Positions 363 through 27,484 of a stretch of 64,000 nt of DNA are shown piece after piece; position 1 is the stretch's first letter; each line of letters begins with the position of its first letter. The stretch comes from Pelagibacteraceae bacterium (GTDB taxonomy: Bacteria; Pseudomonadota; Alphaproteobacteria; Pelagibacterales; Pelagibacteraceae), in the NCBI GenBank assembly GCA_022763425.1, contig JALEGD010000001.1, positions 882,572 through 946,571 on the forward strand, written 5' to 3'. Under the pieces are notes generated by a model that saw nothing but the letters and a program-made list of their open reading frames with translations, was not told the DNA's origin and did no database searches. A program made the position numbers and the translations under genes.

Positions 363-365
363 CTA
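363..365 (-). other. In-frame amber codon splitting the autotransporter
   Basis: The codon order is ATT AAC TAG TCA GGT GGT. TAG is a normal stop here (accC, purN and pilB also end in TAG), so recoding of TAG is not supported. A single CAG to TAG change would explain it. Confidence 0.8.
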
Positions 366-8082: not shown

Positions 8083-8174
8083 ATGCAATGATACTTAACA
8101 TAATTGATTAATAATCTAAAAAAAATTTAGATTATAATGTTAAAAAAATAGGTAAATTAATATAAAGAATAACA

Positions 8175-8828
8175 ATGTTAAGAGCGCTTAAAGTACTCAC
8201 TATTTCTATCTTTTTTTTATCTAGTACCATTGCTTTTGCATCAAACCTCATCTTGTTTGATAAACCCATCAAGGAATACAGAATAAAAAACTATGACGGT
8301 GAAAATAAAATTAGCAGAATTAAAAGCTTAGATGATGAGGTTATCATTACCCATAAATCTAGTAGTTCGGCATCTGGGTTATTTTACGATATTAATATTA
8401 ATTTACGAAAACAAGGTTATCGTTATTTAAATTTTGAATGGAAAGTTGAAAAATTCAAAAATACAGATGAGACAAAGAAAAAATTTCATGATTTTCCAGC
8501 TCGAGTTTATCTCACTTATAAAGATGGGGTGATGCCATGGAACAAGTATTTTATAAACTACGTGTTTTCTAATACCAATTTAAAAAATACTCATTGGAAA
8601 AGTCCATATAACAACCTGTTTACCAAATCATATGATGTTGCCTTAAACGGTTACCATGATCCAGGTTTTTATTGGATAAAACACAAAATAGATTTAAGAA
8701 ATGATATTCAAAAATTTTGGAACATCGATATTGATTACTTAGAATCAATTGCCTTAATGGTTGATACCGATAATACAAAAACAAAAACTGAAACTTCTTT
8801 TAAAAATATTTATTTAAGTAAAAACTGA
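8175..8828 (+). CDS. DUF3047 family periplasmic protein
   Basis: A 217-residue protein with a signal peptide (hydrophobic about 7-22, ending AFAS). The mature part carries the DUF3047 hallmarks: the hydrophobic strand LNFEWKVEKF, KFHDFPARVYLTY, a short HWKSPY motif, and ALMVDTDNTKTKTE near the end. The function of the family is not known; the fold is likely a beta-sandwich resembling carbohydrate-binding modules, which is inference. Its TGA overlaps the ATG of the hybrid kinase gene by one base (TGATG at 8826-8830), so the two are translationally coupled and probably work together. An 86-92 nt gap separates it from the divergent phosphatase gene. Confidence 0.75.
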   Translation: MLRALKVLTISIFFLSSTIAFASNLILFDKPIKEYRIKNYDGENKISRIKSLDDEVIITHKSSSSASGLFYDININLRKQGYRYLNFEWKVEKFKNTDETKKKFHDFPARVYLTYKDGVMPWNKYFINYVFSNTNLKNTHWKSPYNNLFTKSYDVALNGYHDPGFYWIKHKIDLRNDIQKFWNIDIDYLESIALMVDTDNTKTKTETSFKNIYLSKN

Positions 8829-11800: not shown

Positions 11801-11893
11801 GAAAAAGATGTATCTTTAATTATTCAAAAAACTGATCTTGGAGAAAAAGCAATTAAAGAACTGGTAAATAATTTAGTTATCGAAAAAAATTAA
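8828..11893 (+). CDS. Hybrid sensor histidine kinase: Cache-type sensor, HAMP, HisKA, HATPase, two receivers
   Basis: A 1021-residue inner-membrane kinase. TM1 is about 15-35 and TM2 about 434-458; the roughly 400-residue extracytoplasmic part between them resembles a double-Cache sensor (for example FAPAAFVMAPIFTADG-FSGVFAAQI). HAMP follows to about 510. The HisKA H-box SHELRTP has His540. HATPase motifs include NLISNAAKFT, DTGIGI and GGTGLGLS. Receiver 1 has Asp829 and receiver 2 Asp949. Receiver 2 ends IIQKTD rather than with the usual K-P, so it may be degenerate. It is coupled to the DUF3047 gene upstream. The convergent 61-residue gene interlocks with its stop in TTAA at 11890-11893. 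Confidence 0.9.
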   Translation: MQFLNKIKINLYQKLSILVFLISMMAILVFGTFTFVQYSNDVKNEKSSLLNNLRDRQLETLNEYYKSLENLILSKSQSLDTKMALSDFEKSYKEIKITEFQKEDLKKNVRIFYEDQYKFRIQNEFKDVDQTQLDLFLKVAYAFGEQQDQTLYLQNAYLNNPDHPMGFKDKIYYLNDGTKYNLVTHPKYHDRFKKFKDSNNFYDVFLISKENLQIVYSVFKETDYATSLKDGPHKDTNFAKMAKKIVNEYESNAFKEPEVYFTDFERYGPSYFAPAAFVMAPIFTADGDFSGVFAAQIKADNLNRVMANNYQWKKIGLGLTGNSYLVGEDLLLRSDLRLYIQDKETFFKSITDQDNKKNINRIRNLTTSNLLLKVENESVDMAFDRETGIRVSSNIQNKEVLSSYTLFEFKNIKYALVTEMQTSELFGPIRSLFINMSSAVLVALLLAFALTTYLILGLLKPLRKLIEVSERIKLGYYSERARVQTRDEIGELSKSFNEMVNAVESDVIRREKDKQIVSGLKEEAEQANKAKSAFLANMSHELRTPMNAIIGYSEILTEDATDNQHQEYIPDLKKINSAGKHLLQLINDILDISKIEAGKMELDIHEINFASLAQEVADTSEALVTKNGNTLKIIKDESIQGITGDSVKIKQILFNLISNAAKFTENGTITLGYKTHKDDNNYLSIYVQDTGIGIEKDKAAKVFEEFGQADSSTTRKYGGTGLGLSLVKKFSELMGGSIKLESEIGKGSTFTVTIPKNISTSESVAEDVKNNEEIETGKKVILVVDDDKSARDLIKRNLEKEGYIVLTASNGDEAIEIANQKNPHLITLDIMMPKKSGWETLKSLREYIKFKDTPVIMISMLDDDNTAKGLGADDYLKKPVDRNKLIDAITKQKEKMKNNNIMIIDDLKDNRDIVKRHLKDYNFNFSEADNGKDAIEKLHAKPVDGIILDLMMPVMDGFEFLTRIKEYNQLKDIPIIVLTAKDLNSDEVINIEKDVSLIIQKTDLGEKAIKELVNNLVIEKN

Positions 11894-12075
11894 ATATCAG
11901 AATCTATATCTGTTCCAATATTACCTTCTTTGCGCTGTTGTTTTTTTAAAATGTCTTGAATATTTCTTCCATTTCTTTCAACAACATAAAGAATTTTTCT
12001 AAGACCAATTTCAATTCTATAAACTAAAAAAATTAGAATAATAACAATTAAAGATATGAAAATTAGCTCTGCCAT
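11890..12075 (-). CDS. Small single-pass membrane protein coupled to a response regulator
   Basis: A 61-residue protein with one N-terminal membrane helix (about residues 3-20, LIFISLIVIILIFLVY) and a basic then acidic cytoplasmic tail rich in Lys, Arg and Gln. Its ATG overlaps the stop of the upstream receiver gene (TAATG at 12073-12077), which supports real translation. No family was recognised. It could anchor or modulate the receiver or the kinase, but that is only a guess from position. Confidence 0.6.
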   Translation of the reverse strand: MAELIFISLIVIILIFLVYRIEIGLRKILYVVERNGRNIQDILKKQQRKEGNIGTDIDSDI

Positions 12076-12431
12076 TAAGATATAAATTTATTAATTTTTT
12101 CTAATAATCTTGGAAGTTCAACTGGCTTAGTATCAAACTCATCACAACCAGCGTCTAAACATTTTTTCTTATCAGATTCTAATGCATGAGCAGTTAAAGC
12201 TATAATTGGTGTTTTTATTCCTTCTGCTCTCAATTTTTGCGTAATCTCCCATCCATCCATTTTTGGTAAACTCATATCCATTAAAATCACATTATAATCT
12301 GGAGACTTTCCTTTGTTATAACCTTCTTCACCATCTACCGCCATATCAACTTCAAAACCTTTTTTAATAAGTCTTCTAGATAACATGTCTCGGTTCATTT
12401 CATTATCTTCAACTAAAAGAATTTTTGTCAT
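12075..12431 (-). CDS. Single-domain response regulator (CheY/DivK type)
   Basis: A 118-residue stand-alone receiver. It has the acidic pair in LLVEDNEMNRD, the phosphoacceptor Asp in VILMDMSLPKMDGWE (about residue 52), the Thr of ALTAHA and the Lys of TKPVE. No output domain follows, so it acts by protein contact or as a phosphorelay carrier. The pattern MSLPKMDGWE and AHALESDKKKCLDAGCDEF is that of receivers that pair with hybrid kinases. The likely partner is the hybrid kinase next door or the receiver-phosphatase at 6472-8082. It is the first gene of a coupled pair with the 61-residue membrane protein. Confidence 0.9.
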   Translation of the reverse strand: MTKILLVEDNEMNRDMLSRRLIKKGFEVDMAVDGEEGYNKGKSPDYNVILMDMSLPKMDGWEITQKLRAEGIKTPIIALTAHALESDKKKCLDAGCDEFDTKPVELPRLLEKINKFIS

Positions 12432-12885: not shown

Positions 12886-13662
12886 TTAATAATCAGCATC
12901 TGTGGAGATCATATAATTTGTACCTATCTCCCAAGCAATTCCACCATTTGTTGTTCCGCATAGTGTCTGTCCTGCTGCTGGTTGCATGAATGGGCCGTTA
13001 GCAAAACCTGTGGCTCCATTGTTATCCCAAATTTGTGATGAGGTGTAACCTGCTCTAGTCAAATTTGTCAAACCTCTGTTATATGAAATTCCAATAATCG
13101 ATTGGTCCGCATTTGACCTTGCTATAAATTCTGATGCATCCCCACTTTCAGTATATCCTTCTGATGCATAAGTTGTTCCATCTCTATAATGTGCATAAAC
13201 TTGAAAATTAGAACTTTCAACTGGACAGTTCCACCCTTTTCTAAAACCATTTCCACTTGGTGTTGAACGATTACACATAATTTGAACCATACCTTTTTTG
13301 TGCTGGCCACGGTACTCTGAATCGACAGTAATCATTTTTTTATTTGGAAACCATGGATTCACCATATCTTTAAAATGTTCTTTCACTGAAAAAACAAAAT
13401 GTGCACAAGTTGAGTTGGATGAAATTTTATTACCCGTCGCTGTGCCATCAGGTGCAATTTCATTCATAGCAGAGGATAATTCGTTTGAAACAACTGTATA
13501 TTCAAAATCAACTGCTTTTAAAATAGTTTGTATATTCTGCTCAAAAACTTTTAGTTTAGCATTTTCAACGTAACGATCATAACCAACAATTCCAACTCCA
13601 GCTAAGACACCTATAATTGCAACAACAACTAAAAGTTCAACTAAAGAGAAACCTTTTTGCAT
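12886..13662 (-). CDS. Type IV pilin-like protein 4 (group A)
   Basis: A 258-residue prepilin starting MQKGFSLVELL. The open frame runs further upstream (to 13809), but that extension overlaps the end of pilin 5 and would bury the prepilin cleavage site, so the ATG at 13662 is chosen. Cleavage is expected after Gly4; mature Glu5 is present. Cysteines are at 86, 130, 146 and 235, in the four-cysteine family pattern. Blocks VNPWFP, ITVDS, HKKG and the C-terminal DADY are shared. It is the closest relative of pilin 1 across the signalling cassette (same KVF-QN, FEYTVV and NELSSAMNEI segments, and a similar AAGQ-LCG near the end). It follows pilin 5 by 40 nt. Confidence 0.88.
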   Translation of the reverse strand: MQKGFSLVELLVVVAIIGVLAGVGIVGYDRYVENAKLKVFEQNIQTILKAVDFEYTVVSNELSSAMNEIAPDGTATGNKISSNSTCAHFVFSVKEHFKDMVNPWFPNKKMITVDSEYRGQHKKGMVQIMCNRSTPSGNGFRKGWNCPVESSNFQVYAHYRDGTTYASEGYTESGDASEFIARSNADQSIIGISYNRGLTNLTRAGYTSSQIWDNNGATGFANGPFMQPAAGQTLCGTTNGGIAWEIGTNYMISTDADY

Positions 13663-13702: not shown

Positions 13703-14365
13703 TTAACTTCCTGGAGTATACGCCGCATCAGTATCAATCGCATCAGCTCCAGTGTGCCAATTACCATGATCAGTTTGGTTCCAGCCGCAATCTGCTTGGG
13801 CAGATGCAACGTTATTTATAAACCTGCCAATTGATTTATGTGAATACTTAGGGTTTACATTATCGTTTTTACTTTTTGGGTCGTAATAAACAATCACTCT
13901 AAATCTTGCTTGTATCATTGGACACCCTCCACCAGCACCATATCCTCCACTCGACTTATAACAAAAAAAAGAAATCATTCCTGGTTGATGAGTTGTCCAT
14001 CCACCATTATCAACTGTTATACTTGTTTTATCTGGTCTATATGGATTTTTAAATGCTTCATTATCTTTGTTTAAAAACTTTTTCATCGAAACTAAAAATT
14101 GATGACAAGTTGTATCACCTGTAATTTTATTCCCAGTTGCAGTACCGTCAACATTATATTCATCTACAGCGCTACCTAATTCATTTCTTACAATAGTAGC
14201 TTCCGTTTCCATCATTCTCAAAATCTTTTCATAGTTTTGATCTAAAACTTTGCGTTTTGTACTTTCTACATATCGGTCATAACCCACAGTTCCAACCCCA
14301 GCTAAAACACCGATTATTGCAACAACAACGAGAAGTTCGACAAGTGAAAAACCTTTTTGATTCAT
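13703..14365 (-). CDS. Type IV pilin-like protein 5 (group B)
   Basis: A 220-residue prepilin, the shortest of the five, with leader MNQKG and FSLVELL with Glu5. Cysteines are at 87, 135, 148 and 193. The segments GYGAGGGCPM and ADCGW place it with pilins 2 and 3. The end is DTDAAYTPGS, that is, the family's D-A-Y end with a four-residue tail. It lies 20 nt after the LamG minor pilin, so the minor pilin operon appears to run on into pilins 5 and 4 and the rhodanese gene. Confidence 0.87.
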   Translation of the reverse strand: MNQKGFSLVELLVVVAIIGVLAGVGTVGYDRYVESTKRKVLDQNYEKILRMMETEATIVRNELGSAVDEYNVDGTATGNKITGDTTCHQFLVSMKKFLNKDNEAFKNPYRPDKTSITVDNGGWTTHQPGMISFFCYKSSGGYGAGGGCPMIQARFRVIVYYDPKSKNDNVNPKYSHKSIGRFINNVASAQADCGWNQTDHGNWHTGADAIDTDAAYTPGS

Positions 14366-14385: not shown

Positions 14386-16251
14386 TTATCTAATTCTCCA
14401 AGATACCGGGGTTAAAATTACCTTTTCTCTAGCAGAAAGATTTTTTGTAAATCCGTGAGTTTCATTTAAAGCTGGATTTGTATAATTAAGCTGAACTCTA
14501 ACTCTTCTTACTCCTGGAGTATAAGTTTCTGGATTGTTACTACAGTCATGCTCTTTACCGCAACTGTCATAAAAAACATTAGTCAAACCCTGTTTAAATT
14601 GATCCATAGTAATTCCAGCTTGTGGCGTAATTCGAAGCGGTGTCGCATTACCATCAAAAGCTTGATTTACCGTCCATCCAGTTGGAACATTAGTTATATG
14701 AATACGATCCTCATTATTCATATAAATTGAATTTGAAGAACCATCAGTGAAAAAATTAAATTCTACAGTATTGGGAACTTGAGTTTGTGTAAAACCATAA
14801 TCTGCAAGTGTAGTTCCAACCTCTCCTTCGGTTCCAATATCCCCTTTGACTACAGGGGCTGAAACAATAGATTCTAATGGTATGAGTTGTCCTTCTGGTC
14901 CTCGACCACACGATAATATTCTATAATATGCAACATCCTCACCTGGCGGAACGTTAATGGATGGGGCAACATCATGATCAGTTACCAAAGGGTATTTTGC
15001 AAATGTTGATTGCCATTTAGTTTGATTATCACCTGTTAAACTTAAACCCATGACAGTTAAATGATTTTTATCAGCATCGGCTTTTGTTGCGTTGTCATTC
15101 ACAGTGCTTCCGCTGCCTTCGTTAAATTTATAATAACTCACTAAATTAGGTTCTGATCCTGTTAACCTTGTTCTATAATTATCAGCTATGTTTGATTGTG
15201 TTCTTGAATTGCTCCAAATTCTAACTTCTGTAATATTACCTAGCCAAGGCACACCTTGAAACTCTACACCATTGTTTTTTGCTGTAGTAACCGTATCTCC
15301 TGTCGTCCCTTCATCAAAACCATTAAGCCCATTACCAATAACTAATGGTAAATAATCTACACTCGTATCACCATCATCATTTTGATTTGGCAACAAATTG
15401 GATCCACTTGCGTCTGTTCCATAACTTGTGTCATTATTTGTAAAACTTGCGTTCCAAGTACCAGTTAATGATCCGTTTTGATATATTCTAGTATTACCTG
15501 TTCCAGATCCTCCGTCCCAAACCCAGGCAAGATGTGTCCATTGTTTTCTCACTACATTTAAATTATTTGCTGGATCCGTTGACGATAATTCATATGCTCC
15601 AATTCTTGGAGAATATTTATGATCGTAAGAACTATTATTAATCACTTTTAAAACAACATCCCAGTATCTTCCATACTCCCAAGCATGCATGTTATAATTC
15701 ACATCATCCTTGTCGTTATAAACCCACATTTCAACTGTAAACTGATCATCAGGAAAACCTTTAAACTTTCTTACATAAGCACCTGATCGTGACTCTCCAA
15801 GTCCATTAGTTGCGCCTCCTGGACCAAATCCTCCAAAATACAATGATCTAATGTTATCGGCATACCTTTGAACAAAAACCTCATACTGAATGCCTGCAAA
15901 CTTTGAATCGGTTCCTAAATTTCCTTTTATCCATTTTGTAAAATGAACATCTTTTGTACTATCTGTATAGCCATGTCGGTTTAGGCATTGGTTATTAGAG
16001 TTATCAATGTGTGAAGTATTTTGAATATCAAGTAAAGAAAACTGATCTTTATTCATTTCAGTGAGCAACCAGTTCTTAGCAGCTTGTACTCCTGACTCTG
16101 AGGCTAATTTAATTTGCTGGTAAACACTGTTACGTGTTGTCGATTTTAATGCATTATCATAATAAAAATTCATCGATGCTGTCATTAAAGAAAGTGCAGC
16201 AACGACAGCTATAACAAAAACAAGAACAAATCCTTTTTCATTTTTTTTCAT
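14386..16251 (-). CDS. PilX-like minor pilin carrying a LamG (concanavalin-like) domain
   Basis: A 621-residue protein in the slot where PilX normally lies. The N-terminus KKNEKG^FVLVFVIAVVAAL is a prepilin signal without Glu5, as in GspK/PilX-type subunits, followed by SESGVQAAKNWL, the PilX-like segment. About residues 135-400 form a LamG/concanavalin-A-like domain: FTVEMWVYNDKD, QWTHLAWVWDGG, TRIYQNGSLTG, ITEVRIWSNSRTQSNI and LVSYYKFNEGSG. A further 220 residues follow with a Cys pair (Cys564, Cys570). Typical PilX is 150-200 residues. GspK/PilX subunits cap the pilus tip, so this is a likely tip adhesin for sugars or glycans (inference). It overlaps PilW by one base. Confidence 0.85.
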   Translation of the reverse strand: MKKNEKGFVLVFVIAVVAALSLMTASMNFYYDNALKSTTRNSVYQQIKLASESGVQAAKNWLLTEMNKDQFSLLDIQNTSHIDNSNNQCLNRHGYTDSTKDVHFTKWIKGNLGTDSKFAGIQYEVFVQRYADNIRSLYFGGFGPGGATNGLGESRSGAYVRKFKGFPDDQFTVEMWVYNDKDDVNYNMHAWEYGRYWDVVLKVINNSSYDHKYSPRIGAYELSSTDPANNLNVVRKQWTHLAWVWDGGSGTGNTRIYQNGSLTGTWNASFTNNDTSYGTDASGSNLLPNQNDDGDTSVDYLPLVIGNGLNGFDEGTTGDTVTTAKNNGVEFQGVPWLGNITEVRIWSNSRTQSNIADNYRTRLTGSEPNLVSYYKFNEGSGSTVNDNATKADADKNHLTVMGLSLTGDNQTKWQSTFAKYPLVTDHDVAPSINVPPGEDVAYYRILSCGRGPEGQLIPLESIVSAPVVKGDIGTEGEVGTTLADYGFTQTQVPNTVEFNFFTDGSSNSIYMNNEDRIHITNVPTGWTVNQAFDGNATPLRITPQAGITMDQFKQGLTNVFYDSCGKEHDCSNNPETYTPGVRRVRVQLNYTNPALNETHGFTKNLSAREKVILTPVSWRIR

Positions 16252-16883
16252 TAATAACTCACGTTCCTCATAAATGCAGCAGCACTGTATTTTTCAATAA
16301 TTTTTTCACCTGGATCTTCGAGCTCAATATCAAAATTTAAAATATTATTTTTCTTTTGAATTTTGAATTTCTTGAAATGTTTTGCAACAGGCTCCCAACT
16401 AATTGGCATTGTATCATCATTGTTTAAAGTGCAATTATCTGAGTCATAGATCCTTTTTTTTAGTATTGTTTTGTCCGTATCTCCAGTTTGTTCTATTCCA
16501 ATTTCATATTCAACAATTTTTCTTTGAACCGTCCCATCATTATTTTCATGATCAAAACAAGCTGAAACACGATCTGCATCATTTCCATCTGTAACTGCAT
16601 TGTTTGAGGCATCAAATAAACGAATTGCATTTGCATCTGAGATATTATCACTTGAATCAATATGTTTATAACCTGCCATTCTTAAATCTAATTGCAGTGA
16701 ATGAACCGCAAATCTAACTTCTTGTTTAATAACGCTATGATTGAGTTGTCTGACAAATGTTTGTTGGAAATTATTGTAAATGAAATAAGCGGTTCCCATG
16801 ACGATCGTTGAAATGACCACTGCCATTAATGCTTCAGCTAGTGACATACCACTTTGATTTTTAAAATTTTGATTAAGAACCAT
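16251..16883 (-). CDS. pilW: PilW-like minor pilin
   Basis: A 210-residue prepilin. The signal is KNQSG^MSLAEALMAVVIST with Glu at mature position 5. The segment RFAVHSLQLDLRMAGYKHID is the PilW hallmark (family reads R-A---L-RDLRMAGY). PilW belongs to the minor pilin priming complex with FimT, PilV and PilX at the tip of the pilus. It overlaps PilV by 11 nt and the LamG PilX by 1 nt, so the four are one tightly coupled operon. Length is below that of pseudomonad PilW (about 270), so the globular part is reduced. Confidence 0.8.
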   Translation of the reverse strand: MVLNQNFKNQSGMSLAEALMAVVISTIVMGTAYFIYNNFQQTFVRQLNHSVIKQEVRFAVHSLQLDLRMAGYKHIDSSDNISDANAIRLFDASNNAVTDGNDADRVSACFDHENNDGTVQRKIVEYEIGIEQTGDTDKTILKKRIYDSDNCTLNNDDTMPISWEPVAKHFKKFKIQKKNNILNFDIELEDPGEKIIEKYSAAAFMRNVSY

Positions 16884-17697
16884 TGGTATAATGCCTCCTA
16901 AACACTTCTGTAATATTATCTTGTTTAATAGTTATGGTAACTTGTGTTTTGGTAACTGATGTAAATTGATCTACTCCGCTTACTTGATCAGTTACTCCAT
17001 CGTTATTATCATCAACTGGAACATTGACTGTAACCTCGCCAACCTCAATTAATCTTTTATCATTTGTTAATGCACGGCCTAAATGCGTATTTAACAATGC
17101 GCCCCATTTTTCTAAACTGGTTACTACATTAGAGGATAAAGAAGATTTGTAAGTTCCATCTTGGTATTTTAATAAATCTAAATCATCATATGGATCTAAC
17201 GATCCATTTGCGTTTAAAGTAAAAGTTAATTTTGCATTAGCCACTGCATTTGTAGCTAGACTTAAATTTGGTGATGTATCTGGAATATCTGATCGTTTTA
17301 CAGTTAAAGTTGATCTTGTATTTGTTAAACTTGTAGCAGCTGTAATTTCATAAGTACCAGGTACTCCAGCTATCACAAAACGGTCTCCTATATCTGGAAG
17401 TGATGTTAAAGCACTAATCACAATTGATTGTGTGGCTCCTCCAGAAGGATTGGTATTTTGAAAAACAACCGGATCACCATATTGATTTGGTTTTGGAGCA
17501 TAAACAGCATTTAATTCTTCGAAAACTAAATCAACCGCATAAGCTGCTTTGTCAAATTTTCTGAGAAGAGTAAAACGCTTTTCTTGTTCAGACTGCAATG
17601 TCATGAAAACAACAACCGAAATTGCAAGAATTGTCGAAGCGGTAATGGCTTCAACAATGGATAAACCTTTTTGTTTTTTAAATTTATTTTTAATCAA
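16873..17697 (-). CDS. pilV: PilV-like minor pilin
   Basis: About 274 residues. The prepilin signal is KKQKG^LSIVEAITASTIL with Glu at mature position 5. The best start is TTG at 17697, with GGGAG five bases upstream; an in-frame TTG at 17709 is an alternative, and no ATG is available. The rest is beta-rich with no recognised domain except conserved hydrophobic spacing. Order (FimT, this gene, PilW, PilX) is the reason for calling it PilV. It overlaps FimT and PilW. Larger than usual PilV (about 150-190). Confidence 0.7.
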   Translation of the reverse strand: MIKNKFKKQKGLSIVEAITASTILAISVVVFMTLQSEQEKRFTLLRKFDKAAYAVDLVFEELNAVYAPKPNQYGDPVVFQNTNPSGGATQSIVISALTSLPDIGDRFVIAGVPGTYEITAATSLTNTRSTLTVKRSDIPDTSPNLSLATNAVANAKLTFTLNANGSLDPYDDLDLLKYQDGTYKSSLSSNVVTSLEKWGALLNTHLGRALTNDKRLIEVGEVTVNVPVDDNNDGVTDQVSGVDQFTSVTKTQVTITIKQDNITEVFRRHYTNGS

Positions 17698-18262
17698 TTC
17701 TACTCCCAATATTAAAAAAACCAGATGAATAAACGTTTAAAAAATCTGATTTGCCCCCTGCTCGGTTAGATGCTGTTATTGATCCTCTTGCATTTTCTGG
17801 CATTGTTGCATTAGGCAATATACAAAAATAATTATTTGCATCAGATACAGCGGTACAGTTACCTGTAAGTGAAGTACATTTTTTTATCGTAAAATGTTCG
17901 AGTTCTTTCGTAAGATCATCAACTTTGGCTCCGTTGCTTCCTACACCAGAAAAACTTGAACAAGGTGGAGACGAATCTTTATGAAATTCTGAATTAAAAC
18001 GATTTAAGCTTTCATCTTTATATACTTCTAACTCAGATGTATTGTCTGTATCATTGTTCACAATCTTAATACGGTAAGCATTGCCATCCTCCATTGCCAT
18101 TTGACGAACTAGATTAAATTGTGATCTGACAACCGCAATATCGCCTTGATAGTTTTCACTTACACCAAAATTATTAATTGCTGGAAGACCTATTCCAACC
18201 ACAATGGATGCCACTGCAATAACAACTAAAAGTTCAAGAATACTAAAACCATTGCGATTCAT
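17690..18262 (-). CDS. fimT: FimT/GspH-type minor pilin
   Basis: A 190-residue prepilin with leader MNRNG and cleavage before FSILELLVVIAVASI; Glu5 is present. The segment VVRSQFNLVRQMAMEDGNAYRIKIV is typical of GspH/FimT proteins, as is a globular part with a Cys pair (SPPCSSF, then Cys in KKCTSLTGNC). It is the first gene of the minor pilin operon. The divergent gene starts only 12 to 24 nt away, so promoters of the two overlap. FimT-type minor pilins take part in assembly initiation and in some bacteria bind DNA; DNA binding here cannot be judged. Confidence 0.82.
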   Translation of the reverse strand: MNRNGFSILELLVVIAVASIVVGIGLPAINNFGVSENYQGDIAVVRSQFNLVRQMAMEDGNAYRIKIVNNDTDNTSELEVYKDESLNRFNSEFHKDSSPPCSSFSGVGSNGAKVDDLTKELEHFTIKKCTSLTGNCTAVSDANNYFCILPNATMPENARGSITASNRAGGKSDFLNVYSSGFFNIGSRID

Positions 18263-18274
18263 ATTTAATATAGT

Positions 18275-18658
18275 ATGGTTTTTATAATGAATTGGTCAAT
18301 TTTAAAAACTAAGTTTTTTTTACGTGTTTACCTCATGGTAACTTTTTCTTGTATGGTCAATATGGTTTCAGGCAAAATTTTATTAATCTCAATGAAACAT
18401 TTCATAATCGCTTCAAAGGTAGGTTTAGTTTGCGCAGGAGGCTTTGCATTAGTTACATTACTGACCTCTAAACTTATGCAGAATAAATATTTTTTAGCTG
18501 GCTATGTATTTATTGCTACAGGTATAATTGATTATTTCACTCATCCAACGCACTTTGGAAATCACTATACAGAAGCCGTTACAACTGGACTTGGAGCTGC
18601 TTTAATTTCAATCATTGTATCTTTTATTTTGGATAAAAAAAATCAACCAACTGCTTGA
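18275..18658 (+). CDS. Small multi-pass membrane protein, function unknown
   Basis: Up to 127 residues, with about three membrane segments after residue 40 (about 45-66, 71-88, 98-118) and a hydrophobic, Met-rich start. Candidate starts are ATG 18275, ATG 18287, or a shorter form from Met40 (18392). The last 16 nt overlap the end of pilC. It breaks the pilus gene strand between pilC and fimT. No family was recognised. The hydropathy pattern and codon use look like a real gene, but it might also be an antisense-free spacer reading; moderate confidence only. Confidence 0.5.
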   Translation: MVFIMNWSILKTKFFLRVYLMVTFSCMVNMVSGKILLISMKHFIIASKVGLVCAGGFALVTLLTSKLMQNKYFLAGYVFIATGIIDYFTHPTHFGNHYTEAVTTGLGAALISIIVSFILDKKNQPTA

Positions 18659-19926
18659 CCAACACTGAATATCGGAAGGTATAAAGCGACCATTAACAAA
18701 CCAATAATAGCACCAATCACAACAATCATTAAAGGCTCAATAATTGATGATAAAGCGGCAACAACACCATCAAATTCTTCTTCATAATATACAGCAATAG
18801 ATTTAAACATCTCTTCCATATTTCCTGTTTTTTCACCAACCGCAGTAAGTTGAGACAAAGCTAATGGAAATACATGTGTTTCATTTTTTAAAAGTTCAGA
18901 CAACGTTTGACCAGTAACAATTTTTTTTGAAATTCTCTCAATAGCATAAGCAAAAACTAAATTAGTTGTCACCGTTTGGGCAATTCTTAGAGTTTCAATA
19001 ATACTTACCCCAGCTCGTGTTAGATTTTCCATAATCATACACATTCTGGAAACTGTAGATTTGATAATTAAATCTCCAAATAAAGGAAATTTCAAAAACC
19101 TTTTGTGCATCATGTGCCGAAAGCCTTCAATATTATTGTATAAAAATTTATAAATAAATCTGACAACAAATATTGTAATTGCAATTCTCATAATGTTTCC
19201 ACCATCTGCAATAAATCTGCTGGCATCGACGATAATTAGAGTTGGGCCAGGTAATTTAACACCCATATTCGCATACATTTTTTCAAAGACGGGAACAACT
19301 TTCCATAACATGAATATGGTAATTGTAGTTGCAACGGTAAGAAGCATGATTGGATAAAAAAGTGCACTTTTAATCCCTGCTTTAATTTTCTGGTTCTTCT
19401 CTAAAAGCTCAACTAACTTAATTAAAAACTCATCTAGCTTACCACTGGCTTCACCCGCTGAGATCATATTAATATAAATGTTATCAAATATTTTAGGGTG
19501 TTTCTTAAAAGAGTCGGTCAAATTCATTCCTGAATTTAAATCTTTAACAATATTATGAGCTGTCATTTTCATTTTCATATGAACTGTTTGGTCTCTAATC
19601 ATCATAATTGACTCTAAAATTGGAAGACCTGCTTTAATCATCGTTGATACTTTTTTTGTAAATTGCAAAAGTTCTTTTGGTGGAACGGTTGCCCATGGTC
19701 CAAAATTTAAATAGATCTGACCACCTTTGAAAATAATTGGAGCGTTACTAACTGGAATATCTTGAATTTGATTAACTTCTTTTTTTTGAGCAGAAGCCTT
19801 TTTTATACCTGTAACAATAATTTTTTTTTGTCTAAGCGCTAAAGATGCTGCTTTTGGATCTGAAGCATTAATTTCTCCATTAATTCTTTTACCAGCTTGA
19901 ACACCTGAATATGCAAATGTTGCCAT
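18643..19926 (-). CDS. pilC: Type IV pilus inner-membrane platform protein PilC (GspF family)
   Basis: A 427-residue GspF-family protein. The N-terminal domain starts ATFAYSGVQAGKRINGEI with A-R-KKIIVTGI. Two T2SF repeats follow: LLQFTKKVSTMIKAGLPILES and, in the second half, RMCMIMENLTRAGVSIIETL. Membrane helices lie near residues 190-215, 240-260 and 390-420 (IVVIGAIIGLLMVALYLPIF). PilC is turned by the PilB ATPase to insert or extract pilins. The gene follows pilB by 3 nt and is last in the core operon. Confidence 0.92.
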   Translation of the reverse strand: MATFAYSGVQAGKRINGEINASDPKAASLALRQKKIIVTGIKKASAQKKEVNQIQDIPVSNAPIIFKGGQIYLNFGPWATVPPKELLQFTKKVSTMIKAGLPILESIMMIRDQTVHMKMKMTAHNIVKDLNSGMNLTDSFKKHPKIFDNIYINMISAGEASGKLDEFLIKLVELLEKNQKIKAGIKSALFYPIMLLTVATTITIFMLWKVVPVFEKMYANMGVKLPGPTLIIVDASRFIADGGNIMRIAITIFVVRFIYKFLYNNIEGFRHMMHKRFLKFPLFGDLIIKSTVSRMCMIMENLTRAGVSIIETLRIAQTVTTNLVFAYAIERISKKIVTGQTLSELLKNETHVFPLALSQLTAVGEKTGNMEEMFKSIAVYYEEEFDGVVAALSSIIEPLMIVVIGAIIGLLMVALYLPIFSVGQAVG

Positions 19927-19929
19927 AGA

Positions 19930-21675
19930 CTATGTAACTAATATCCTTGAATATTCATGGATATCAATCACTCCGCTTTTAATAAAGCCACGACCTATAT
20001 CTTGCATAGTTTTAAATCCACCTTTTTTTGCAACCTCTAATAATTCATCTCCTCTTGCGTCTCTTAAAATTGCAGACTCTAATTCAGGTGTTTTTTTCAA
20101 TACTTCGTAAATACCTTGTCTACCTTTGTAACCAGTATTGTTACATTGATCACAACCTTGTCCTTTTTTTGCTTTAAACGTTGAAAGCTCTTCTTGTTTA
20201 AAACCAAGTTTTAATAAACTAGGTTCAGAAGCTTGATCATCTTCCGCTAAACAATTTTGACATGACTTTCTAGCAAGACGTTGTGCTACGATTAATGTAA
20301 GAGCAGAAGCAACCATGAAATTTGGAACGCCCATGTTGGTTAATCTTACAACTGTTGATACTGCATCATTAGTATGAAGTGTACTTAATAATAAGTGACC
20401 AGTAAGCGCAGCTTTAATTGCAATATTAACTGTATTTTTATCTCTGATCTCTCCAACCAGTATCACTTCTGGATCTTGTCTTAAAAAAGATTTTAAAATA
20501 TTTTCAAATGTTAAACCTATCTCTTCATTGGCTTGAACTTGACCTACTCCTTTTAAGTAAAATTCCACTGGATCTTCAGCGGTCATAATATTTTTACCTG
20601 GACTATTTATTTTTTTTATACAGCCATAAAGCGTTGTACTTTTACCGCTTCCTGTTGGCCCAGTCACCAATACCATGCCTTGAGGCGCAGAAATTGCACT
20701 CACTAAATTTTTATAATCTTCAGGATCCAAACCAATTTGCTCTAAACCAAGATCAGGTCCAGCTGCAAGCAAACGCATAACCACTCGTTCACCTTCTTTT
20801 GCTGGAAGACAAGAAAATCTCACATCAATATCTTCATCATCTTGACTTTTTGGTTTGGGGTTTTTGAACTGAAGTTTACCATCTTGCGGTAAACGCCTTT
20901 CAGAAATATCACAGCCAGCCATAATTTTTAAACGCGTAATAATAGCGTTATAGTTAGACATCAAAAAATCTTTGTATTGAACTTGTTCCTGCAAAACACC
21001 ATCTTTTCTAAAACGAATTCTAGCTTCACCTCGACGATATGGTTCAATATGAATATCTGAAGTGCCAGTATTAAAGGAGTCTAACAAAACTGCATCAACA
21101 AACGATACCACATCGCCCTCTGCTGGCTTAGCTCCTCTTGCTCCGGGAATTTTAATTCCTTGAGCCATGGGTTTTGGTTTTGCTGCAGGTTGATCTGTAC
21201 CGCTTGAAGATTTTAAAGCTTCAACAACAACTTTGAATTTTTTTGCATTTTCAATATTAGATGGTTTTGCTACATAGATTTCAATATTACATCCCGTCAT
21301 ACTTTTCATTTTACTAGCAAGCGTTGATTTTGTTGGATCAAAAATTGCAACTTTTAAAATTTTACCAACTAAATCAAATGGAATGATTTCGTTTTGTTGA
21401 ATAAATTCTTTTGGAAGTTTGGCTAACGCTTCTTTTTTTACAGTTTGTTCAGTAAGTTGAATTTTTCTTAATGCGTAGTTTCTTGAAATCGCCGCAATAA
21501 TATCATCTTCGGTAACTTTTTTATCTTCTATTAAATAATGCAGGATACCTAATGGGGCTTTTCCGTTCCCATCATATTTTTTTTTAGCTTCTGCTATCAT
21601 GGGGTCGGACAACTTCCCCATGGTTTTTAACAGGTTGGTTACTTTCAAACTAATTTCTGGTGAAATTGAAGGCAT
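19930..21675 (-). CDS. pilB: Type IV pilus extension ATPase PilB (GspE/MshE family)
   Basis: A 581-residue secretion ATPase. The N-terminal MshEN-like region is about 20-150 and the catalytic core about 185-560. Walker A is GPTGSGKST (339-347). The Asp box reads MTAEDPVEF, Walker B ILVGEIRD, and the His box LSTLHTNDA. Four cysteines, C472-x2-C475 and C508-x2-C511, form the zinc site typical of PilB/GspE. It hydrolyses ATP to drive pilus growth. It lies between the secretin and PilC. A retraction partner, PilT, is present at 26495. Confidence 0.94.
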   Translation of the reverse strand: MPSISPEISLKVTNLLKTMGKLSDPMIAEAKKKYDGNGKAPLGILHYLIEDKKVTEDDIIAAISRNYALRKIQLTEQTVKKEALAKLPKEFIQQNEIIPFDLVGKILKVAIFDPTKSTLASKMKSMTGCNIEIYVAKPSNIENAKKFKVVVEALKSSSGTDQPAAKPKPMAQGIKIPGARGAKPAEGDVVSFVDAVLLDSFNTGTSDIHIEPYRRGEARIRFRKDGVLQEQVQYKDFLMSNYNAIITRLKIMAGCDISERRLPQDGKLQFKNPKPKSQDDEDIDVRFSCLPAKEGERVVMRLLAAGPDLGLEQIGLDPEDYKNLVSAISAPQGMVLVTGPTGSGKSTTLYGCIKKINSPGKNIMTAEDPVEFYLKGVGQVQANEEIGLTFENILKSFLRQDPEVILVGEIRDKNTVNIAIKAALTGHLLLSTLHTNDAVSTVVRLTNMGVPNFMVASALTLIVAQRLARKSCQNCLAEDDQASEPSLLKLGFKQEELSTFKAKKGQGCDQCNNTGYKGRQGIYEVLKKTPELESAILRDARGDELLEVAKKGGFKTMQDIGRGFIKSGVIDIHEYSRILVT

Positions 21676-21701: not shown

Positions 21702-23330
21702 TTATACAATATTAGCGGTCACAAATATTAACAGCTGGGACTTGGTATCATTTTTAGTTTTAGTTTTAAAAAACTCTCCTAAAATTGGTATTCTATGTAA
21801 CAAAGGGACAAAAATAATATCATCTTGTTTGGTATTTTTATAAACACCACCCAATACAGCAACATCTCCGGCATTTAACACTACAGTAGAAGTTACGTTT
21901 TCAGTATTTTTAGGTGTATTAGAATCTGTTCCTCCTGATCCAAGAGAATCGTTTGCTAAAGTGATTTGTAATCTAACTTTGTCACCAATGATAGTTGGGG
22001 TCACTCCAAAGTTTAAAGTAAAATCTAACGTTTCAAAACCACCGGCATCTCCTCCAGATGCAGGAACAGATCTTACTTGCTGAGTTCCTTGACTAATTGT
22101 TGCTCTTTCACCATCAATTGCAAATATTTTAGGATTTGAAATCGTTTCTGAATTTGTGTCTGATACTGATGCAGCAATTGTTGCACCAAGTCTAGCTCTA
22201 CCAAGTCTGGCCAAAATAAAAACTCCACCTTGTAACGTTGGAGCAGTAAGATCAGTGTCTGCAGAAGCGTCCGGAGTACCAACTGCTAACTTATTTCCTT
22301 GAGGATTAGATGCACCAACCATAGTTCCAATACCATCTTGCCCTCCTGCTCTCCAGTTTCCTCCAGCTGCACTTACAGCTTCTAAATTGGCATCAAACTT
22401 TTTTGTAAAACCATCTTCAGCATTTACAATAAATGCTTCAATCATCACTGATTTTCTCTCAATATCAATTTTATCTAATAACATTTCTGTTTGATCTAAC
22501 TGTTGTTTTGTACCAGTGACAATAAGCTGATTGTTAATCGCATCATTTGTCACTGTTAATCCGTTAACTACAGCATTCAAACTTGTTACTAAATCTTGTG
22601 ATGTTTGGTTAAAGACTTTAAATATTTCTGTTCTTGTTTCTTCTTCTGCTTGAGCTTGATCTCCAGTTGCATCTGTTGCTGTATTTGCAGGAGTTGTAGA
22701 GGCACTATCGCTTCCAAGAGAATCTAAGTTTTTATTAATAGTATTTGTATTATCGATTTTCTGTTTTTCTAATTCTATAAATTTCTTTTTTGTATGAACT
22801 CTCAGCATTCCAGAAGACTGGTCATGCAACATAACAAGATTATTCATTTCTAAAATTGCATACACTGCTGATCCCCATTTAATGTCTTGAAAATCAACTG
22901 TAATCGTGCCTGTTACCTCATCACCAATAATTAAATTTCTTTTAACAATGCTAGAAAATAATTTTAATGCGGATCTAATATTAATGGAGTCAAATTTTAA
23001 TGTAACTGGAACTGTCTCTAATGTTTTTACAGGTAAATTTAAATCAATAATATCTTTTGGTCCAAGTGATGCTTCTTGAACTACGGGTTGATCTAGAGGA
23101 ATTCTTCTTTTGGATGTTGGTTTAGATTTTGATCTAAAAGATTTTGCATCTTTAGCAAATTGATCTGAATTTTTTTTTAATTCTGTAATTGATTTTTTAA
23201 CATTAAAATTTTCAATATCTTGTTTGGTAATTTTCTCTTTATCTTTGTAAGCCATGTCTGGTCTTTTCTTTCCACAAGAAGCGGTAAAGACTAAAAGTAG
23301 CGACAAAGTTAATACAAGTATCTTTCTCAT
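21702..23330 (-). CDS. pilQ: Outer-membrane secretin PilQ/MshL
   Basis: A 542-residue secretin. The N-terminus is a lipoprotein-like signal with a possible lipidated Cys19 (TASC; the -3 position is not Leu). An STN/AMIN-like segment, VPVTLKFDSINIRSALKLFSSIVKRNLIIGDEVTG, is followed by an N-domain (IFKVFNQTSQDLVTSL) and the C-terminal secretin domain, with the signature VNAEDGF, LNFGVTPTIIGDKVRLQI and GDVAVLGGVYKNTKQDDIIFVPLLHRIPILGEFFK. It forms the gated pore for the pilus. It is closer in length and layout to MshL/GspD-like secretins than to the long PilQ of pseudomonads. It overlaps the LysM/PilP gene by one base. Confidence 0.92.
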   Translation of the reverse strand: MRKILVLTLSLLLVFTASCGKKRPDMAYKDKEKITKQDIENFNVKKSITELKKNSDQFAKDAKSFRSKSKPTSKRRIPLDQPVVQEASLGPKDIIDLNLPVKTLETVPVTLKFDSINIRSALKLFSSIVKRNLIIGDEVTGTITVDFQDIKWGSAVYAILEMNNLVMLHDQSSGMLRVHTKKKFIELEKQKIDNTNTINKNLDSLGSDSASTTPANTATDATGDQAQAEEETRTEIFKVFNQTSQDLVTSLNAVVNGLTVTNDAINNQLIVTGTKQQLDQTEMLLDKIDIERKSVMIEAFIVNAEDGFTKKFDANLEAVSAAGGNWRAGGQDGIGTMVGASNPQGNKLAVGTPDASADTDLTAPTLQGGVFILARLGRARLGATIAASVSDTNSETISNPKIFAIDGERATISQGTQQVRSVPASGGDAGGFETLDFTLNFGVTPTIIGDKVRLQITLANDSLGSGGTDSNTPKNTENVTSTVVLNAGDVAVLGGVYKNTKQDDIIFVPLLHRIPILGEFFKTKTKNDTKSQLLIFVTANIV

Positions 23331-24598
23331 TATCTAAATAGATCCTCTACATTTGTAATTGAGTTTTCTTCATTCGATGCTTGCTCTTGAGGCGCAGGTG
23401 ACTCTGCAGATGGTGCACCCTCTGCTCCTGCTTGAGCTGGAGTTGCAGCTCCTGGTCCAGGTGTTGCTCCAGGTGTTGCTCCAGTTGGTGACGGTGCCAT
23501 TGGAGCTTGTGGAATTGATGCGACTTGTCTGACAATAGGAGCGTTGATTTGGAATGAAAACTCCTCATAGTTTTCTAAAACTTTCATTTCATGATTTGTA
23601 ATTTTAACAATTTTACCACCCTGCTTTCCAAGCTTGTCACCTTCTCTAACCATAAATTGCTTTCCACGAATTTCTATAATCGCTAAATTTTTTGGATTGA
23701 TTGTGTAGTTTAACAAACCTCTTTTTGTTTTCATCACTTCAACATTTAAAACTGGATTTACAAAAATAGGTATTTTAACGTATTGATCTTTGTTTAACTT
23801 ATCATTCCTTGATAAGTTATTAATTTTTAAAACTTCATCTTTAGTTCTTCTGAACTTTTGTGCAATTTGCTCAATTGTTTCTTCAGTGCTAGTTCTGTAA
23901 ACATAAAAAGGTAACAGCAATCTCTCACCAAGTTTAAGCTCATCTCCTGGCATTAAGTTATTAAAACCAATCAAATCTTTTAAATCTAAATTATAAATTT
24001 CAGCAATCATTTCTAGTGATTGACCTTTTTGAACTTTGTGGATTCTTGCAGGTAGAGTAATTCTTGTTCCCATGATTAATTTTGATCCTGGAACAATCGA
24101 GTTTGCAATTTTTAACTCTTCAGGCGCATAACCGTACTGTCTAGCGATGCTATCTATAGTATCATTCTGATTAACAATATGGGTGGTTTTAATATTACCA
24201 TAATCGATTTTTTGCGCTGAACCTTCACGGTTAAAAGCAACCATATCTAAGTTATCTGTCGTGTTAAGCGCGGTACCTTTGAGTGTATATTCAACAAGAT
24301 CATAAGCAATTAAAGGATCGGGTGCTAAAATATTTCCAATTGGATCAATTTTATCTGAAGTAGATTGCACTACAGGCTGTTGCATTTGTGGTTGTGGAGC
24401 TTGAGCTTGAGACATGGTGTCTTGTGGTTCAGGATTTCCGTTGTTTTCTACAGTTTGCTCGGATGAGGTTGCGCTTTCGTCTTTAGCAACTTCGGTACCA
24501 TCCCCTAAGCTTCTAGTAAAAGGGTCTTCAGTATTTGCATACAAAGATTTACCTGTAATAAAAAAAGATAAAATAAATATGATTATAAACTTGCTCAT
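23330..24598 (-). CDS. LysM protein with PilP-like segments, pilus alignment complex
   Basis: A 422-residue exported protein. A signal peptide ends near residue 21. Residues 85-125 (DPIGNILAPDPLIAYDLVEYTLKGTA) and 305-345 (AIIEIRGKQFMVREGDKLGKQGGKIVKI) look like the two halves of the PilP fold. Between them are three LysM-like repeats (about 138-183, 186-230, 235-278) that should bind peptidoglycan. The tail after 360 is Pro/Ala/Gln-rich, with 15-bp tandem repeats in the DNA near 23455-23490. PilP joins PilN/PilO to the secretin. The LysM part would fix this link to the wall, a task done by separate proteins (FimV, TsaP) elsewhere. It lies between PilMN and PilQ, the usual PilP place. Confidence 0.72.
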   Translation of the reverse strand: MSKFIIIFILSFFITGKSLYANTEDPFTRSLGDGTEVAKDESATSSEQTVENNGNPEPQDTMSQAQAPQPQMQQPVVQSTSDKIDPIGNILAPDPLIAYDLVEYTLKGTALNTTDNLDMVAFNREGSAQKIDYGNIKTTHIVNQNDTIDSIARQYGYAPEELKIANSIVPGSKLIMGTRITLPARIHKVQKGQSLEMIAEIYNLDLKDLIGFNNLMPGDELKLGERLLLPFYVYRTSTEETIEQIAQKFRRTKDEVLKINNLSRNDKLNKDQYVKIPIFVNPVLNVEVMKTKRGLLNYTINPKNLAIIEIRGKQFMVREGDKLGKQGGKIVKITNHEMKVLENYEEFSFQINAPIVRQVASIPQAPMAPSPTGATPGATPGPGAATPAQAGAEGAPSAESPAPQEQASNEENSITNVEDLFR

Positions 24599-24600
24599 TT

Positions 24601-26358
24601 CTACCGTTTCTTTTTAATAATTTTGTCTAAAACTTTAAAGTTATCAAACGTTTCACCTTCAATCGGCGCCATTGCTATTGTTGCTGAAAATTTTTTCGTA
24701 ATATCTTCATTTGGAAAAGTCTTTGGTGCAGGTTTTCCTCTCTCACTATAAAGCTGTTTCCTGTCCTCTTCAGTAAAATTAACAACGTTATTTAGTTTAG
24801 CTTCTTTAACAATCTCTGCTTCAGAAAATTTGTCTATCATTTGAATGATAGATTGATCATCTTTTGCTATTCCATCAATTTCAACTTGTCTTTTATCGCT
24901 AATCTCAAACTTGGTCAGTCTAACATTTTTAGGAACATTAGATGATAGAGATGCAATTAGTTCGGCTGTTGTTTTTTTATTTTCTCCAAAGTATTTTGAA
25001 GTTGTAACTTGACCAGTAATTTTTCCAACTTTACCTTGGTATGCCTGAATTAATTGCTCCTTTGACTGAACATCTTTTGTAATACCAGCAAGCTTAGCTA
25101 TTTCAGAAGAGTTATCTAAAATTTTAAAAAGGCTACCTGCTACTAAGTGGACCCCACCAAAAAAGAATATTAAAAAGCTCATGATAAAACAATATTTTGA
25201 AAATGAATTTGCTTTTCTATTCACTTTTAATTGTTCAGCGCGTGGTAACAAATTAAAATCATACATCTGACTTTCGTTTGCTACATTGTACGCATTTAAT
25301 TTTCTTAAACCTGCTCCAATGCAATTAATTGTTTTTGATTTATTTGGAAGTGCATCAAGATATTTTTTTTCATCATCTCCAAATGTAATACTTTCTTCAG
25401 GATCATAAGTTTTGATCACAACTTCACCAAGTTGTTTCTCTAGTCCTGTAAATAAATTTTTTGTTTTAGATTTATCGGTTACAACATTGATTAAAGATAT
25501 CGGCTCACACTCATGCTGAGTTTCAAACTCAACTAAACCTTGTTTGATTTGTGATGCGAGACGATCAAAAATCTCATCCCAAAATTCAGTGGTAACATCA
25601 TCAACTTCTTCAATTGTATCTAAAAGAACCTGATCTGCTTCAACGATATTAATATCTGAAATATTTAAACCTTTATTTGATGCAACCGTTAAATAACTAT
25701 TGTCTTTACTGTAATTAAAAATTGCAACCGGGCTATCAAACCCTTCTTTTCCAAGTGAAGCATATAAAGCATTTATTTGTGAAGCTGGATTAATATCAAT
25801 TATAATTGGATTTAATCCTGCTAATCTAAAAATATTGACATAAGCTTCAACTAATTTTTTTTCAATTGTAACTAAAGTGACATTCATCACACCTAACTCT
25901 TCATTAGATGAAATGATTTGATAACTAGTTTCAAATTCTTCTAAACTTTCAGGTGTTTCATCAAACTGTTCCCAAAATCCACCAAGACTAACAGTTTCTG
26001 CTAAATCTTTTGGATCCATAAGTGGAATTTGAAGATTATAAATTGTTGAACTTAACCTGCCTAAAGTAATTGCAACATCTTTTGTCTTTGTATCAATAGA
26101 ATCTAAACAGTTTTTTATTTGATCACTTAAATAAGTTGATGCTGAATAAATATCTTGGTCTTTTCCAATTCCTGCAATTTGTTGATAGGTATAGTCTTTA
26201 ACCTGCCAAATCTTTTTCTTGTAAATGAGTTCGATTAATTGAATCTCGTTATCTTTAAACGCAACACCTAAAATTTTTTCTCCATTTAATGAGATTTTTC
26301 CTAATTTTTGAAAAATAGGTTCTAAATTTTTATTTAATAGTTCAGTTATGTTAGCCAT
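24601..26358 (-). CDS. PilM-PilN fusion protein
   Basis: A 585-residue protein. Residues about 25-360 are PilM-like (actin-fold ATP-binding): ILGVAFKDNEIQLIEL at the start, LETVSL-type and GLNPIIIDINPASQINALYA motifs, then IGAGLRKLN. At about 369 the PilN hallmark FNLLPRAEQLK appears, followed by one membrane helix (389-410) and a periplasmic coiled coil plus ferredoxin-like domain (VPKNVRLTKFEISDKRQVEIDG). In most T4P systems PilM and PilN are separate, and PilM binds the NLLP tail of PilN. Here they are fused, as in GspL. No pilO gene follows; the next gene is the LysM/PilP protein. First gene of the core operon. Confidence 0.85.
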   Translation of the reverse strand: MANITELLNKNLEPIFQKLGKISLNGEKILGVAFKDNEIQLIELIYKKKIWQVKDYTYQQIAGIGKDQDIYSASTYLSDQIKNCLDSIDTKTKDVAITLGRLSSTIYNLQIPLMDPKDLAETVSLGGFWEQFDETPESLEEFETSYQIISSNEELGVMNVTLVTIEKKLVEAYVNIFRLAGLNPIIIDINPASQINALYASLGKEGFDSPVAIFNYSKDNSYLTVASNKGLNISDINIVEADQVLLDTIEEVDDVTTEFWDEIFDRLASQIKQGLVEFETQHECEPISLINVVTDKSKTKNLFTGLEKQLGEVVIKTYDPEESITFGDDEKKYLDALPNKSKTINCIGAGLRKLNAYNVANESQMYDFNLLPRAEQLKVNRKANSFSKYCFIMSFLIFFFGGVHLVAGSLFKILDNSSEIAKLAGITKDVQSKEQLIQAYQGKVGKITGQVTTSKYFGENKKTTAELIASLSSNVPKNVRLTKFEISDKRQVEIDGIAKDDQSIIQMIDKFSEAEIVKEAKLNNVVNFTEEDRKQLYSERGKPAPKTFPNEDITKKFSATIAMAPIEGETFDNFKVLDKIIKKKR

Positions 26359-26494: not shown

Positions 26495-27484
26495 ATGTTA
26501 GAAGACTTACTTCGGGACTTACCTAAGCAATACGACTTATCCGATATTCATATCAGATCGAATCAACCTATTGCCATAAGAGAAAACGGTGAAATAAAAG
26601 TTTTTAATGAAAACGTTATTAGAAGAGAAGATTTAGAAAGTTATTGGAAAAAAGCATTAGATAAATCTCAATTTGATTACTTAATCAATAATGGAGATTT
26701 AGATTTTGCAATTGTTGTTGATGGACAGAGGTTTCGTGCCAACGGCTATTATTGTTCTTATGGACCAAGTATGGTGCTTAGAAAAATTGTAACTGAAATT
26801 CCTGATATTAATAAACTTGGATTACCTGAAGCAGCACATGTTGCCATCACTCATAAAACAGGTTTGGTTTTGGTTACAGGTCAAACTGGATCTGGTAAAT
26901 CGACATCGCTTGCTGCAATGATTGATCAAATCAATTCAAACCGAGCAGAAAATATTATTACCATTGAAGATCCGATAGAATTTGTTCACCCTGCAAAGAA
27001 AAGTATTATTTCGCAAAGGGAAGTTGGAAAAGACACAGGTAGCTTTGCACGAGCACTAAAGTCTGCACTAAGACAGGATCCTGATGTTATTCTTGTAGGT
27101 GAGATGAGAGATTTAGAAACTATTTCCTTAGCCTTAACTGCTGCTGAAACAGGCCACTTAGTTTTTGGAACGCTTCACGCGAGTAATGCAGCTTCAACTA
27201 TTACAAGGATATTAGATGTGTTTCCTGCCGCACAAAAAACACAAGCTCAAACAATGCTTGCAGGATCAATTAGACTAGTCATGTCTCAACAATTATTAAA
27301 AAGAAAAGGCGGTGGAAGGATAGGTTGTCATGAAATTATGACTGGAACTGCTGCAATAAGAAATTTAATTCGAGAAGGAAAAGTTGAACAAATTCCATCA
27401 ACACTTCAAACATCTGCTAAAGATGGAATGTTTACGATGGAAAAATGTTTAGAAGGCCTTAAACAAAAAGGCTTAGTTGAATAA
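26495..27484 (+). CDS. pilT: Type IV pilus retraction ATPase PilT
   Basis: A 329-residue ATPase. Walker A is GQTGSGKST (129-137), the Asp box IEDPIEFVH, Walker B VILVGEMRD, and the His box FGTLHASNA. The C-terminal AIRNLIRE (287-294), needed for retraction in PilT, is present. There are no zinc cysteines, as expected for PilT. The N-terminus DLSDIHIRSNQPIAIRENGEI is standard. It is divergent from the core operon across 136 nt. It implies that these pili can be retracted, so twitching or pulling on bound surfaces or DNA is possible. Confidence 0.93.
   Translation: MLEDLLRDLPKQYDLSDIHIRSNQPIAIRENGEIKVFNENVIRREDLESYWKKALDKSQFDYLINNGDLDFAIVVDGQRFRANGYYCSYGPSMVLRKIVTEIPDINKLGLPEAAHVAITHKTGLVLVTGQTGSGKSTSLAAMIDQINSNRAENIITIEDPIEFVHPAKKSIISQREVGKDTGSFARALKSALRQDPDVILVGEMRDLETISLALTAAETGHLVFGTLHASNAASTITRILDVFPAAQKTQAQTMLAGSIRLVMSQQLLKRKGGGRIGCHEIMTGTAAIRNLIREGKVEQIPSTLQTSAKDGMFTMEKCLEGLKQKGLVE

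Follow-up and report, generated by a model that had tools for sequence, protein, structure and literature searches.

A LamG domain inserted into a K-type minor pilin of a SAR11 type IV pilus: a candidate tip adhesin in a system without PilY1

Background

In diderm type IV pili (T4P) of the T4aP class PilY1 is the tip effector (PMC10191384), and a K subunit caps the complex of minor pilins found there (PMC9934059, PMC10191384, PMC8179133). K subunits of the GspK/PilX type lack Glu5 and occupy the operon slot after PilW, and GspK possesses an extra inserted domain, which is alpha-helical. In S. sanguinis, which has no PilY1, minor pilins fitted with vWA or lectin modules serve in adhesion (PMC9934059, PMC8179133). 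The S. sanguinis minor pilin PilC (PMC9934059) is a Glu5 pilin of a monoderm bacterium, with Ig and concanavalin-like lectin modules placed after the pilin part. ComZ of Thermus thermophilus (PMC6561018) is a GspK-like pilin and proposed tip receptor, in which a large beta-solenoid domain, thought to bind DNA, is inserted between the penultimate and the last strand. A modular pilin in the sense of Pelicic has a functional non-pilin domain grafted onto the pilin, at its end and via a short linker; wider use of the term takes in GspK and ComZ, both of which have inserts (PMC8179133). Modular pilins with the LamG-type family PF13385 are already known and common (PMC8179133).

In this paper we describe PilX-LamG, a 621-aa minor pilin encoded in a window of 64,000 nucleotides from the complete 1.21-Mb chromosome of a SAR11 relative of HIMB114 (Pelagibacteraceae bacterium, GCA_022763425.1). 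Unlike in S. sanguinis PilC, its lectin-type domain is set within a K-type pilin that lacks Glu5, and the host is a diderm with a secretin; judged from the sequence, the domain lies before the last two strands, not between them as in ComZ. A functional non-pilin domain is thus grafted onto a pilin, but the LamG domain interrupts this pilin instead of following it, and a tail (residues 467-621) is C-terminal. The census of modular pilins (PMC8179133) required the IPR012902 prepilin motif; since PilX-LamG did not match the N_methyl motif in our Pfam scan, it may escape such a screen, and its relatives reach 1,900 aa. The PilY1/PilC tip adhesins (PF05567) have the same proposed role of a tip-displayed adhesin and are not homologous to PilX-LamG. 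In the literature searched we found no paper on these PilX-LamG and giant minor pilin proteins of SAR11. What is new here is new in degree: a LamG domain inserted within a K-type subunit, a diderm T4aP without PilY1, and giant multi-lectin minor pilins in SAR11.

Results and discussion

The pilus locus and the pilX-LamG gene

The pilus genes of the window are as follows.

12886..13662, (-): second PilA-like pilin (start set by the HIMB114 orthologue, 258 aa)
13703..14365, (-): PilA-like pilin directly after pilX
14386..16251, (-): pilX-LamG, K-type minor pilin, 621 aa (ORF, Pfam, short-PilX profile, weak NCBIfam T2SS_GspK)
16251..16883, (-): pilW, minor pilin, 210 aa (orthologue 1224 aa in genome G023)
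16873..17709, (-): pilV, minor pilin (orthologue 703 aa in genome G011)
17690..18262, (-): fimT, minor pilin
18643..19926, (-): PilC, inner-membrane platform protein (T2SSF)
19930..21675, (-): PilB, extension ATPase
21702..23330, (-): PilQ, secretin
23330..24598, (-): LysM protein with a weak PilP-like stretch
24601..26358, (-): PilM-PilN fusion
26495..27484, (+): PilT, retraction ATPase, which marks a separate T4P type (72-100% identity in six genomes, 49-58% in all others)

The T4P gene set of this genome, PilT included, is complete; the view that PilT is missing from the locus was rejected when pilT was found at 26495-27484. The slot after pilW is held by PilX in all loci read, and here it contains an intact frame that starts with ATG, overlaps pilW (16251-16883) by one base and is directly followed by a PilA-like pilin, so that the 621-residue frame named in an earlier note on this DNA stands as described. 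The leader MKKNEKG, followed by FVLVFVIAVV, has the prepilin form, with F as mature residue 5; a type III prepilin signal with a hydrophobic helix and without Glu5 is thus present (KG before FVLVFVIAVVAALSLM), whereas Glu5 is found in FimT, PilV and PilW of the same operon. Together with the match to a profile of ordinary PilX proteins (see below), the leader bears out the assignment to the K/PilX type, and the protein would be processed as a prepilin.

The NCBIfam model T2SS_GspK matches residues 6-70 weakly (E=0.0036), and K subunits of type II secretion systems (T2SS) likewise have an inserted domain (PMC8179133, PMC6561018). One might therefore read the operon as a T2SS-like secretion pseudopilus in which PilX-LamG recruits or presents a secreted substrate. 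We regard this as highly improbable: PilT, the PilM-PilN fusion and the four PilA-like pilins are features of T4P, and the relatives of PilB and PilT are encoded in T4P loci.

PilX-LamG is 97% identical in HIMB114, the nearest named relative, and three genomes of another genus encode proteins of 49-54% identity over 480 residues. Between this genome and HIMB114 dN is 0.018 and dS 0.534 (dN/dS about 0.034), i.e. the gene is under strong purifying selection. A frame shift, a fusion of frames or an assembly artefact is ruled out by these three results. Synonymous divergence falls from ~1.6 in the N-terminal pilin part to ~0.4 in LamG and tail (window 14386-16251 against L007:8001-9866), which could point to recombination of the module between strains.

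A LamG domain within the pilin head

Ordinary PilX proteins of other Pelagibacterales possess 189-257 aa (about 190-260 aa) and no added domain. A profile built from 14 of them (short-PilX HMM) matches PilX-LamG with a full-sequence E=2.3e-21 (ten-sequence set), in two separate places, and the following parts can be told apart.

15853..16251, (-): residues 1-133, leader (1-7), N-terminal helix without Glu5 and first pilin strands (...YEVFVQR); short-PilX HMM 57.6 bits, residues 1-132
14956..15852, (-): residues about 134-432, inserted LamG/concanavalin-like domain; PF13385, profile match to 4dqa, structural neighbours of a model of low confidence
14854..14955, (-): residues about 433-466, final strands of the pilin (YYRILSCG...LIPLESIVSAP); second match of the short-PilX HMM at 441-464, alignment with four short PilX C-termini
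14389..14853, (-): residues 467-621, C-terminal domain; shares 34% identity with residues 1773-1901 of the G023 PilX (1901 aa)

The second match (5.7 bits) is by itself short and weak, and takes its weight from its order and position and from the fact that BLAST finds it again in the G023 protein and in G011 (37-40% over 40-48 residues). The short-PilX score of the whole protein, 66.2 bits, rises to 68.1 when residues 134-432 are deleted in silico and reaches 71.3 if the tail is cut as well, whereas it falls upon deletion of other stretches of 299 residues. In addition, the alignment with four short PilX proteins stops at a shared proline, P466. From the two-part match, the deletion scores and this common end it follows that the pilin head encloses the LamG domain and that residues 467-621 are a separate domain, for which the Pfam search gave no significant family. 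On this evidence the LamG domain interrupts the pilin between its first strands and its last two strands. An appendage at the C-terminus is ruled out, as the short-PilX profile resumes behind LamG, and the earlier placement of the domain after a short PilX-like helix has to be revised, since the profile is found on both sides. Likewise, the 220 further residues noted before do exist, but not as one block: they comprise the last two pilin strands and the C-terminal domain of 155 residues.

The nature of the inserted domain

The Pfam family Laminin_G_3 (PF13385) is matched by residues 164-279 with E=8.7e-10 and 39.4 bits, above the cut-off of 27.6. A profile of five related LamG regions matches the carbohydrate-binding structure 4dqa (E=2.9e-5), here over the domain's other half. 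Modelling of the domain from an alignment of six rows gave a structure of modest to low confidence (pLDDT 44, pTM 0.53); its best structural matches are 4dqa, pentraxins, the LamG of PAPP-A, carbohydrate modules of sialidases and S. sanguinis PilC, the lectin module of which (7oa7/7oa8) is matched with VIA Z 7.5 over 124 residues at 3.3 A. The LamG/concanavalin-type domain of the earlier note was thereby recovered, and residues ~134-432 are, by profiles and model, predicted to form a LamG/concanavalin-like beta-sandwich. Viral LamG relatives were sought for a deeper alignment and few were found; phmmer searches of the PDB with the whole of PilX-LamG or with the 1901-aa PilX gave nothing significant, and a full-length AlphaFold model (from the window, HIMB114 and four short PilX proteins) was too poor for use (pLDDT 31).

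The neighbours in fold are concanavalin-like carbohydrate binders and pentraxins, and by analogy the domain may bind glycans. LamG domains also bind proteins, lipids or calcium, or play a structural part. Alternatively, the inserted domain could be a receptor that binds DNA for uptake, or some other ligand that is not a glycan. Such a function would be analogous to that of ComZ, a GspK-like pilin built on the same plan, with a large inserted domain, for which DNA binding has been proposed (PMC6561018), and SAR11 T4P have been tied, if only speculatively, to competence (PMC12636525). The domain of ComZ, however, has another fold, a beta-solenoid, and LamG folds as well as the C-type-lectin folds present in relatives typically bind carbohydrate or protein, not DNA, so that we deem a DNA or other non-glycan receptor quite unlikely.

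Absence of PilY1 and two types of SAR11 pili

In the complete host genome no match to PF05567 was found and a full-length PilY1 query was negative. The absence of PilY1, claimed before for the locus, is thereby confirmed genome-wide, and a PilY1 hidden elsewhere in the genome is ruled out. Among 397 Pelagibacterales genomes 124 bear T4P, and these are split by the identity of their PilT to that of the window: six at 72-100% (this genome, G006, i.e. HIMB114, G023, G064, G067 and G011) and 118 at 49-58%. All six systems of the separate type lack PilY1 and all six possess enlarged minor pilins. Conversely, a PilY1-type protein is present in each of the 114 assessable other systems (four further loci end at a contig end), in 109 by PF05567 and in five by reading of the usual slot, which contains a PilY1-like frame with vWA but without PF05567 (G063, G172, G179, G196, G215).

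The PilY1-less Pelagibacterales T4P are thus exactly those with enlarged minor pilins, as expected if these replaced PilY1 (Fisher p=1.1e-6 for PilY1 against T4P type). In the PilB and PilT trees, however, the PilY1-less group lies on one side of a single branch each. Because both trees contain this one split, the p value is not evidence of repeated replacement, and the co-occurrence cannot alone prove replacement: as judged from the trees, the contrast between PilY1 and modular pilins is one event. A replacement of PilY1 by enlarged minor pilins is therefore suggested but not proven. Two other alphaproteobacteria have a PilT (58-59%) that resembles that of the window slightly more than most other SAR11 PilT do, so the separate type may have a separate origin.

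The PilY1-bearing SAR11 loci (L018, L042-L051 and others) contain a small secreted protein of about 170-190 aa between pilX and pilY1; none of the modular-pilin loci read showed such a protein.

Enlarged minor pilins in relatives

The 621-aa PilX with LamG is shared by this genome and HIMB114. The enlarged minor pilins of the other four genomes are listed below.

L014:6688-12393 (G023), L038:1005-6722 (G064), L039:919-6648 (G067): giant PilX, 1901-1909 aa
L014:12396-16070 (G023), L038:6729-10424 (G064), L039:6651-10316 (G067): giant PilW, 1221-1231 aa
L015:9841-11952 and L015:11945-13792 (G011): PilV of 703 aa and PilW of 615 aa, beside a plain PilX of 219 aa

To our knowledge, the giant PilX proteins are among the largest pilins. 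All three have the LamG and the C-terminal domain in common with PilX-LamG, and each possesses one or more C-type-lectin-like modules with the motifs EPN and WND, the profile of which matches conglutinin (E 5e-4), CEL-I (9e-4) and mannose-binding proteins. Two further candidate modules of this kind (by eye) and a weak CBM_5_12 match were observed in the giant PilX. PilW of G011 ends in a C-type-lectin-like module homologous to that of the giant PilX (blastp E about 1e-5). Pfam searches gave no significant family for the last ~1010 residues of the giant PilW proteins (the G023 extension among them) or the C-terminal extension of G011 PilV. A search for PilX with LamG in other genomes, as proposed in the earlier note, succeeded within the order (HIMB114, G023, G064, G067), while none was found outside Pelagibacterales among 385 class-level genomes, where the other matches were LamG-type domains in other frames.

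Lectin-type modules are thus present in all six PilY1-less systems, carried on PilX or PilW. Since the C-type-lectin-like module is found on PilX in the G023 group and on PilW in G011, such modules appear, from their homology, to have passed from one minor pilin to another, and as the PilX of G011 is unadorned they are not tied to the K subunit.

These relatives also bear on the possibility that LamG and tail are purely structural, taking over the priming or capping role of PilY1 by stabilising FimT-PilV-PilW-PilX or by blocking premature retraction, with no external ligand. In M. xanthus T4aP assembly needs PilY1 together with the minor pilins (PMC7541494), and the absence of PilY1 here together with the strong conservation of LamG and tail between this genome and HIMB114 would fit a structural part as well. 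Yet in G011 it is PilV and PilW that bear the additions, beside a plain PilX, i.e. there is no fixed recurring structural element, and in three relatives C-type-lectin-like modules have been added whose EPN/WND motifs are intact, which hints at ligand binding. We therefore consider an exclusively structural role unlikely.

A possible working of the pilus tip

By analogy with the systems described above, we find it rather likely that PilX-LamG is a tip K subunit which displays its LamG domain as an adhesin and does the work of PilY1; the pilus itself would then probably carry a lectin-like "hand". In the course of evolution the LamG domain would have been inserted into the loop that joins the first strands of the pilin head to its last two, and a second domain gained at the C-terminus. 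PilX-LamG would assemble first with FimT, PilV and PilW via its N-terminal helix, and its lack of Glu5 and its bulk would place it at the end of the filament. Held outward, the LamG domain would act as a glycan- or surface-binding adhesin, doing the job of the PilY1 of other SAR11 pili, and retraction by PilT would pull the cell toward the ligand, or the ligand back to the cell surface. The earlier note proposed that polysaccharide particles or algae might be caught in this way.

More tentatively, and with somewhat more doubt than belief, we extend this to a distinct T4aP, independent of PilY1, that a few lineages of SAR11 would possess and whose tip complex would act as adhesin in its entirety. 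The minor pilins PilX, PilW and PilV would have acquired LamG and C-type-lectin modules by grafting, by insertion or by exchange among one another, replacing PilY1 as in S. sanguinis, and the cell would grip glycan-coated particles or cells. SAR11, regarded as free-living and with no adhesion observed in Pelagibacteraceae culture (PMC12636525), would thus gain a candidate glycan-binding device; if true, a streamlined open-ocean cell would be able to grip such particles or cells. As closely related SAR11 pili exist with and without PilY1, the idea of replacement is testable inside one order.

Other genes near the locus

The four PilA-like pilins of the window (220-258 aa) form two tandem pairs (4954-5679, 5715-6446, 12886-13662 and 13703-14365, all on the (-) strand), which flank a block of two-component/SpoIIE signalling genes (6472-12431). 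Adhesin autotransporters near the T4P locus have been reported for SAR11 (PMC12636525); at 363-3587 (-) the window encodes a protein of 1074 aa that contains PATR repeats of autotransporters (E=2e-31), and in G011 an autotransporter also adjoins pilT.
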